Of a DNA stretch of 64,000 nt, positions 46,447 through 47,081 are shown in pieces. The notes under the pieces were generated by a model. That model ran no database searches and had not been told where the DNA came from. It saw only the letters and a list, made by a program, of their open reading frames with translations. How positions within the stretch are numbered: the first letter of the stretch is position 1; every line of letters begins with the position of its first letter. The position numbers were made by a program, and so were the translations under genes. Source of the DNA: Bergeyella zoohelcum ATCC 43767 (GTDB taxonomy: Bacteria > Bacteroidota > Bacteroidia > Flavobacteriales > Weeksellaceae); assembly GCF_000301075.1 (NCBI RefSeq), contig NZ_JH932293.1, forward strand, positions 732,593 to 796,592, given 5' to 3'.

Positions 46447-46476
46447 TTGTGTATTAGAAAACTTTATCTATCTTTG
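46447..46476 (+). promoter_or_regulatory. Promoter: TTG, 19 bp, TATCTTTG, before the AC repeat
   Basis: TTG 46447-46449 and TATCTTTG 46469-46476 predict a start near 46482. That is almost at the ATG 46484 of the repeat-crossing frame and 80 bp upstream of the microsatellite. Confidence 0.75.
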
Positions 46477-46562
46477 CCTCGTTATGTTACACGCAATCAA
46501 TACATATAAAATTACTGAAAAAAAGTGGGCCAAAAATTTGGTCAATTCAAATGATTGTGTAA

Positions 46563-46642
46563 ACACACACACACACACACACACACACACACACACACAC
46601 ACACACACACACACACACACACACACACACACACACACACAC
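46563..46642. repeat. Pure dinucleotide microsatellite (AC)40
   Basis: Eighty bases of uninterrupted AC, from a46563 to c46642, with no interruptions. Such long dinucleotide tracts are very rare in bacteria and usually mark hypermutable, phase-variable sites. It lies in the leader between a consensus promoter (46469-46476) and the surface-protein gene at 47082. Confidence 0.98.
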
Positions 46643-47081
46643 TTACCTTCGCTAAGTATATATAAATATGCGTGTGTACGCGGAATCTATAAAAAAAATC
46701 TAGAGCGAGCAAATATCGGATATTTTAATTTATATCCTCCTTCATTGAGAAGGGGGCAATTTTGTTTGTGTCTATGTCATCATCATAGTTATTTGTTACC
46801 CCATAGAGGAGAGACCTGCACCAGTACCTTCCCTATCCTTCACCAGAACTTTTTACAAAAATCAATACGATATCAGTGTCTCCCTTCTAATTTGTACAGT
46901 TCACTAATTGTTTTTTGGGAGGATAGGGATTTAATAAGGAATTATCTAGAAAAAGGAAAGAAATTAAAGAATCTAAAAAATCGAAATCATCGAAATCATC
47001 GAAACGAACGGAATCCTTTAATTTTTTCAATCTTTTAATCATTTAATAAAAAAATAAATCAACATTTTAAATTTAAAAACG

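Follow-up and report, generated by a model that had tools for sequence, protein, structure and literature searches.

An (AC)40 tract as the candidate switch of a phase-variable transcription attenuator in the leader of a Bergeyella zoohelcum surface-protein gene

The leader of a probable surface-protein gene of Bergeyella zoohelcum carries an uninterrupted (AC)40 tract, and this tract probably acts as the switch of a phase-variable transcription attenuator. The window, the whole stretch of DNA analyzed here, is 64,000 nucleotides long, and the leader features and the gene behind them lie on its plus strand. By sequence, a promoter match, a leader open reading frame (ORF), a three-frame design, a hairpin, and conservation in multiple copies and across genera have been observed; slippage in living cells, translation of the leader, termination, and the effect on expression are what we infer from this arrangement. 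In the proposed mechanism, transcription would begin just 5' of the ATG at 46484 and ribosomes would translate the leader ORF through the AC tract. Which of the three frames they leave it in would depend on how many AC units slippage has added or removed. Two frames would bring them to a stop no more than about 25 bases past the tract, before they reach a hairpin at 46736–46756; the hairpin would then form, most transcription would end there, and the gene would be OFF. The third frame would carry ribosomes on to 47038 and prevent the hairpin from forming, and transcription would proceed into the surface gene (ON). This is the state predicted for the window copy, with its 40 units.

The tract occupies positions 46563–46642 and matches (AC)40 exactly (100% matches), as an earlier sequence-only reading had described it; when read, it encodes Thr-His repeats. 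It is the sole qualifying simple run within the 64-kb window in a scan with thresholds of at least 5 units for AC, GT, AG, or CT, at least 6 units for AT, and at least 8 for G or C. The chance of an (AC)40 run is ~10^-51 per site if independent bases are assumed. Immediately 5' of the tract lies the conserved anchor ATTGTGTAA (46554–46562), which has been found by anchor searches in the family genomes and in genome_contigs. A short hairpin-like sequence, GCGTGTGTACGC, is seen at 46670–46681, and several copies in genomes ranging from Prevotella to Riemerella likewise have a G+C-rich hairpin-like sequence 3' of the tract (for example, CGCGTAGCGCGCGTATTATAC). A known Rfam leader RNA or riboswitch was rejected, as no match came near its gathering score in 46200–47200; the three matches in this region were all minus-strand microRNA families at the repeat and scored far below gathering. 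An assembly artefact, which the same reading had named as a way in which it could fail, is unlikely to account for the tracts in general, since chromosome-sized contigs from other genomes (G297, G309, and G310) carry the same arrangement. The exact unit number of any single copy is less certain because several of the B. zoohelcum sister leaders hold N gaps.

The predicted promoter is a Bacteroidota-type consensus match, TTG-N19-TATCTTTG, at 46447–46476. TTG starts at 46447 and TATCTTTG at 46469–46476 forms the −7 box, which is separated from the AC tract by 86 bases, in agreement with the earlier description. This is the only TTG-N17..23-TAnnTTTG match on the plus strand of 46000–47090. No second consensus promoter of this form is located on that strand between the tract and the 47082 gene, and a promoter downstream of the tract, which would have counted against the sequence-only reading, is not indicated by this search. 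The promoter is kept in the sister copies, with TATCTTTG and a TTG 19 bases upstream in 13/13 B. zoohelcum copies. Among 45 copies of other Weeksellaceae, 38 have a TTG placed 19–20 bases before the TTTG box, and in most of the Weeksellaceae copies compared this box stands 7–19 bases before the leader ATG. In the window, the leader ATG at 46484 follows the −7 box by 7 bases, suggesting a transcription start near the leader ATG.

The leader ORF (46484–47038) has 184 codons in the present AC state, begins M..NDCVN-(TH)n, and then continues in the long frame; it is the 184-codon frame that had been noticed to cross the tract. The repeat unit is not a multiple of three and lies within this ORF, behind the promoter match. 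In 39 distinct sequences of equal length from five genomes, the frame from the ATG to the tract is open in all 39, and neither of the other two frames upstream of the tract is free of a stop in any of them. For one of these closed frames, the stop is always the TAA of the conserved anchor. The amino acids of the leader peptide are not conserved, with 17, 15, and 16 polymorphic columns at the three codon positions and most codon differences changing the amino acid. A conserved leader peptide was rejected on account of this even spread of substitutions, which mostly change amino acids. Amino acids that are free, with stops excluded, fit translation of the leader. The indel lengths in the long frame are not clearly multiples of three, in pairwise alignments that include unrelated stretches.

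Downstream of the tract, the leader has one open and two closed frames. The two short frames end with TAA at 46653–46655 and 46663–46665, and the long frame, which is the state at n = 40, ends with TAA at 47036–47038, 43 bases 5' of the 47082 gene. These stops lie at +13, +23, and +396 from the tract, so that those ending at 46655 and 46665 precede the hairpin and the one ending at 47038 follows it. A post-tract frame as long as that of the window occurs in 0.001 of shuffled leaders, and frames of such length occur in at most 0.001 of the shuffles for 7/8 B. zoohelcum copies tested, the exception being L018. The Prevotella-type copies taken alone are not significant for frame length in the shuffle test (0.125–0.199; 0.079 for L123).

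Exactly one frame is open from the tract to the hairpin in 47 of 53 copies, compared with 7.1 expected from shuffles; the 53 are the copies with a hairpin at the set threshold out of 69 collected, the hairpin being picked by energy alone in the relatives and at a fixed, hand-chosen CCTCCTTC site in B. zoohelcum. The pattern is found in 42/46 Weeksellaceae copies (3.8 expected), including 9/10 in B. zoohelcum (1.04 expected), and in 5/7 Bacteroidales copies (3.3 expected), which alone is not above chance. The six exceptions are L146, L018, L077, L096, L102, and L123. In L077, L096, and L102, the pattern is lost with tracts of 4.5, 7.5, and 4.5 units, and it is kept in L066, L090, L091, L093, and L095 despite tracts of 3.5 to 7.5 units. 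L018, in B. zoohelcum, has no long frame and carries a duplication. Two of the genome_contigs copies fit poorly, L146 with two open frames and L128, whose 5.5-unit tract lies 33 bases upstream of a gene. Although the distance from tract to hairpin ranges from 120 to 249 in G308–G310, 20/21 copies there keep one codon register where the long frame passes through their common hairpin. The claim that each 2-bp slippage step would shift the 184-codon frame and so switch 47082 fits this comparative evidence.

The terminator-like hairpin, identified by a terminator scan, has the form CCTCCTTC-ATTGA-GAAGGGGG (46736–46756; −11.9 kcal/mol) and is followed by the tail CAATTTTGTTTG, the whole extending over 46736–46768. 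In the general scan, it is the only terminator-like site in 46200–47200 (shuffle mean 0.2). It is present in the 10 B. zoohelcum copies that are readable there, as two sequence variants which both pair. By comparison, the hairpins of the relatives are stronger, at about −18 to −25 kcal/mol, and in B. zoohelcum the spacer is CAA and the T tail imperfect. Under a strict rule (hairpin plus T tail, spacer of at most 2, 60 shuffles per leader), which misses the window hairpin because its spacer is 3 bases, 0/8 tested B. zoohelcum leaders beat their shuffles, with 25–51 of 60 shuffles being as good. Under the same rule, all 60 shuffles are beaten by 7/7 leaders in G300, 10/10 in G309, 2/2 in G310, 11 of the 14 tested in G308, and three of four Prevotella leaders, the remaining one standing at 4 of 60. 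Only two of the nine tested leaders of R. columbina (G311) do so, and 4/8 R. columbina leaders have no hairpin under the rule used in the 86-row count of frame states described below. Strong hairpins are also found in G297, where the long stop is inside the hairpin in 5/11 rows. In the rule of the state count, preference went to hairpins that begin before the long stop + 15, where there were any; a figure of 78/80 for hairpins reached is partly circular because this choice depended on the long stop, and it is not used here. As a separate observation, the motif GTGTGTG, which is complementary to the AC tract, occurs in nearly all leaders of G300 and G308–G310 (for example, L055 and L106). It sits in the hairpin loop where the sequence is printed, and pairing between loop and tract is possible.

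The window leader is one of many in its genome. The B. zoohelcum assembly (G000, 2.33 Mb, 7 contigs) has 13 AC runs of at least 9 units, all in the same dispersed leader and all starting after an A, none beginning with C; a C-start AC run was also found in none of the 11 genomes searched. With the 133 bases before the tract as the query, 18 places are matched in B. zoohelcum, several of them shortened by N gaps or a contig end, and the copies are 95–100% identical over this upstream part where it is complete. In several copies, homology to the window copy reaches from near the promoter into the start of the gene. The tracts of the sister copies have 11 to 40 units where they are not cut by N. 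The sequence-only reading of a slippage-prone locus is partly supported, and one thing that changes is its treatment as a single odd locus, as the window has one copy of an arrangement repeated in the genome and in several genera.

The frame states of the B. zoohelcum copies are eight short, two long, one without a long frame, and two not assessable. The two long copies are the window copy and L016, both of 40 units. In all genomes together, 12 of 86 assessed rows are in the long frame, with 5/11 in G297 and 7/75 in the other genomes. The binomial P for so few long-frame copies is 4e-5, which is only indicative because paralogues are not independent. The count covers runs of at least 6 units, with 10 copies holding N gaps set aside and the two runs of L093 entered as two rows; it dropped one of two G297 copies (L194 and L199) that have identical 100 upstream bases. 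L103, at a contig end, had been wrongly entered as long in a separate count of states. The tracts fetched were 12/16 in G297, 1/3 in G313, and part of those in G308 and G311. These states fit switches that are mostly OFF in the sequenced clones, with the qualification that tract lengths from short reads may err and that the copies are non-independent.

The gene behind the window leader (47082–49073) starts about 440 bases after the tract and encodes a probable surface protein of 663 aa. It has the signal-like N-terminus and VGIGT motifs reported for it from sequence, together with VGIN motifs and a coiled-coil-like end, and shows no Pfam or NCBIfam match at E 0.01. The protein belongs to a mosaic paralogue family and has 41 matching stretches, its own among them, in the B. 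zoohelcum genome; 15 of these matches start at query residue 1. These surface proteins look mosaic. They share the N-terminus, vary in the middle, and have C-terminal parts that reach 95% identity even at distant loci, which suggests recombination between copies. Other leader copies precede proteins matching Mfa_like_1, OmpA, FISUMP, or HU-HIG, the FISUMP-domain protein being that behind L087 (G300). In B. zoohelcum, L038 is located 5' of an HU-HIG gene (Pfam PF18291), as are L019 and L020. The AC leader also stands before genes of HU-HIG type DNA-binding proteins at L055, L056, and others, and, judging from this placement, these possible regulators may be phase-variable as well. Elsewhere in the window, at 60160–61069, a 452-base unit that opens with an ATG and a signal-like stretch occurs as two tandem copies (96% matches).

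The search of Weeksellaceae genomes for AC tracts that the sequence-only reading had proposed has been run. A 15-base anchor (ATTGTGTAA plus ACACAC) is found in 6/320 family genomes (13 matches in G000, 7 in G300, 17 in G308, 10 in G309, 2 in G310, and 12 in G311), and its reversed control gave one match in all. Long A-start AC runs are found in 13/316 family genomes, 10 of the 13 being in the three genera of the anchor-bearing genomes; the reversed control for this count matches the tracts themselves and is uninformative. A 20-base anchor matches 41 stretches in genome_contigs, all in records titled as Bacteroidota members. These include Riemerella anatipestifer CCUG25054, R. columbina DSM 16469, Weeksellaceae TAE3-ERU29, and two Prevotella, and also Alistipes, Rikenellaceae, Bacteroidales, Bacteroidetes, and Bacteroides assemblies. 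The element is patchy, since among 395 genomes sampled across the phylum nothing else was convincing. The only hit in that sample besides B. zoohelcum (G487/L148) was judged to be due to chance, with a tract of 4 units and no hairpin or frame pattern above shuffles.

The usual layout in these genomes is a Bacteroidota-type promoter, a near ATG, an open frame into the tract, two early-stop frames and one open frame, and a hairpin with a T-rich tail, followed by a surface-type or HU-HIG gene. Leaders in one genus are 76–80% alike over 60–93 bases, and others have no such alignment. A shorter leader type has been observed in G298, G299, and G313 in seven copies (L201–L207), with the ATG 8 bases before the tract. 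It has two early stops, a strong hairpin with a T run in 7/7, and an HU-type gene behind five, and its last 26 bases before the tract resemble those of the window by eye. Its third frame ends close by, inside or beyond the hairpin, and in L201 and L205 it stops about 5 bases before the hairpin.

The sequence-only reading had named a length fixed between isolates as a way in which it could fail. In Riemerella loci paired by their upstream flanks (87–97% identity over about 1270 bases), tract length differs in 3/3 pairs, at 5.5 vs 22.5, 15.5 vs 39.5, and 15.5 vs 20.5 units, with one genome per species. In the first of these pairs (L091 and L094), the downstream gene is HU-type at L091 and surface-type at L094, and recombination may also have acted there because the downstream genes differ in kind. 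The longest tract among the copies read, at 59.5 units, is that of L219 in G309, before a surface-type gene.

Two alternatives share the frame switch with the attenuator reading and place the link to the gene elsewhere. In one of them, a ribosome ending the long frame near 47082 would re-initiate, or would read into the gene, with no terminator involved; this is close to the coupling to the 47082 gene that the sequence-only reading had suggested. The long frame does often end 4–60 nt before the gene, in a Rikenellaceae copy it runs unbroken into the frame of the gene, and the B. zoohelcum hairpin is weak. On the other hand, the first recognized gene follows the long stop by 216, 262, and 307 nt in L087, L105, and L120 of G300, five long stops in G297 are inside the hairpin with the first long ORF at least 55 nt further where found, and terminator hairpins are strong in most relatives. 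Because the long frame ends 90 to ~300 nt before the gene, past the hairpin, in some relatives, the leader hairpin at 46736–46756 rather than coupling is the likely main link, and we consider a purely translational link unlikely, while taking it seriously. The same standing is given to Rho-dependent polarity, in which the untranslated leader would be exposed to Rho in the short frames and the hairpin would be minor. The long untranslated leader left by the short frames, the weak hairpin of B. zoohelcum, and the R. columbina copies in which none was found are consistent with it; the strong hairpin-plus-T-run terminators of the Riemerella, G300, G297, and Prevotella copies argue against it.

The remaining alternatives dispense with the frame switch. 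The tract could act only via RNA or DNA structure, through pairing of AC with a G/U-rich leader or through the spacing between promoter and gene, with the open frames as by-products. GTGTGTG within 600 bases after the tract, as found in 14/15 leaders of G308, 13/14 of G309, 2/2 of G310, and 12/12 of G300, would suit such pairing, but it is found in 0/8 of B. zoohelcum, 0/11 of G297, 0/4 of R. columbina (G311), and 0/3 of Prevotella HJM029. The pattern of one open and two closed frames is also far above chance in Weeksellaceae, and free amino acids with stops excluded fit translation, making an action through structure alone improbable. Still less probable is a neutral repeat family, in which recent copying of leader and gene would have spread an inert AC run. 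Such copying would account for the near identity of the B. zoohelcum leaders over their 133-base upstream part, but the layout and frame pattern are kept in a genus with leaders only 76–80% alike and in others without alignment.

If the attenuator reading holds, it can be extended, tentatively and with somewhat less confidence than would be needed to prefer it, to an old and spreading cassette carried by Bacteroidota. This cassette would consist of the promoter, a near-leaderless leader ORF, the AC tract, and the terminator, and would provide whole sets of surface genes, and HU-type regulators, with slippage switches that act independently and are ON in one frame of three; with ~18 leader copies in one genome, it would give a combinatorial surface display with most switches OFF. 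Seemingly noncoding leaders would then become readable code, with AC length alone enough to predict the ON or OFF state of each surface gene. This would apply to Riemerella and related Weeksellaceae, and perhaps also to certain Prevotella, and the states given by short-read assemblies may be wrong. Switching of HU-HIG genes in the same way as surface proteins would become testable, and a mechanism of two streptococcal pilus loci would extend to a genome-wide switchboard in another phylum.

Repeat-controlled attenuation has been demonstrated by experiment for the pil1 locus of Streptococcus gallolyticus, where, in the available text of the report, a leader peptide becomes longer when the repeat changes out of frame, and a premature terminator is then blocked by the ribosome (PMC3894217). 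As in pil1 and pil3, whose repeat is GCAGA, a simple repeat with a unit that is not a multiple of three lies within a leader ORF, and, as in pil1, the frame decides whether the leader stop precedes a stem-loop, here a terminator-like one, or falls at, in, or beyond it (PMC3894217, available text). The G297 long stops inside the hairpin resemble part of the pil1 variants, and the genes downstream are for surface structures in pil1 and probably so here, pil1 being a stochastic ON/OFF switch (PMC3894217, same text). The B. zoohelcum system differs in phylum and in having AC rather than GCAGA, and the likeness rests on layout rather than on a sequence comparison. As far as the available text on pil1 goes, it also differs in that the window ATG is almost at the predicted transcription start, whereas pil1 has a ribosome-binding site, and in that one frame of three is predicted to be ON, whereas two are in pil1. 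Likewise, 18 leader matches in one genome, with HU-type besides surface genes downstream, stand against two loci described in S. gallolyticus. In Helicobacter pylori oipA, slippage in a dinucleotide (CT) repeat also shifts the frame and switches an outer-membrane gene, to judge from partial text. The oipA repeat belongs to the gene that encodes the protein, in its 5' part. Unlike oipA, the repeat described here has a leader ORF of its own, and the surface protein stays the same.

Within Weeksellaceae, the FSD genes of Ornithobacterium hominis have 450-bp noncoding repeats with a putative phase variation mechanism (PMC10353427 and PMC13183296, in the text available). They share with the present case leader-sized repeats beside multi-copy surface-type genes and a suspected phase variation, and the FISUMP-domain protein behind L087 is a further likeness; unlike here, the repeats are termed noncoding and the available text gives no mechanism (PMC10353427, PMC13183296). 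The accessible part of the 2019 O. hominis draft-genome paper does not mention phase variation (PMC6421346), and in the announcement of R. anatipestifer CH3 the term appears only in a reference title (PMC4335342). The invertase systems of Bacteroides also make surface structures phase-variable in Bacteroidota, but by DNA inversion, a mechanism unrelated to repeat slippage, according to the part of a review that was available (PMC11868660); the terms "leader peptide" and "gallolyticus" are absent from that review's text. Among the matches listed, and within their available text, no description of an AC-tract leader switch in Bacteroidota was found. Because its layout matches that of the S. gallolyticus pil1 system as given in the available text (PMC3894217), the window leader is best placed, on its sequence, as a putative pil1-like attenuator by mechanism and as an independent analogue of it.
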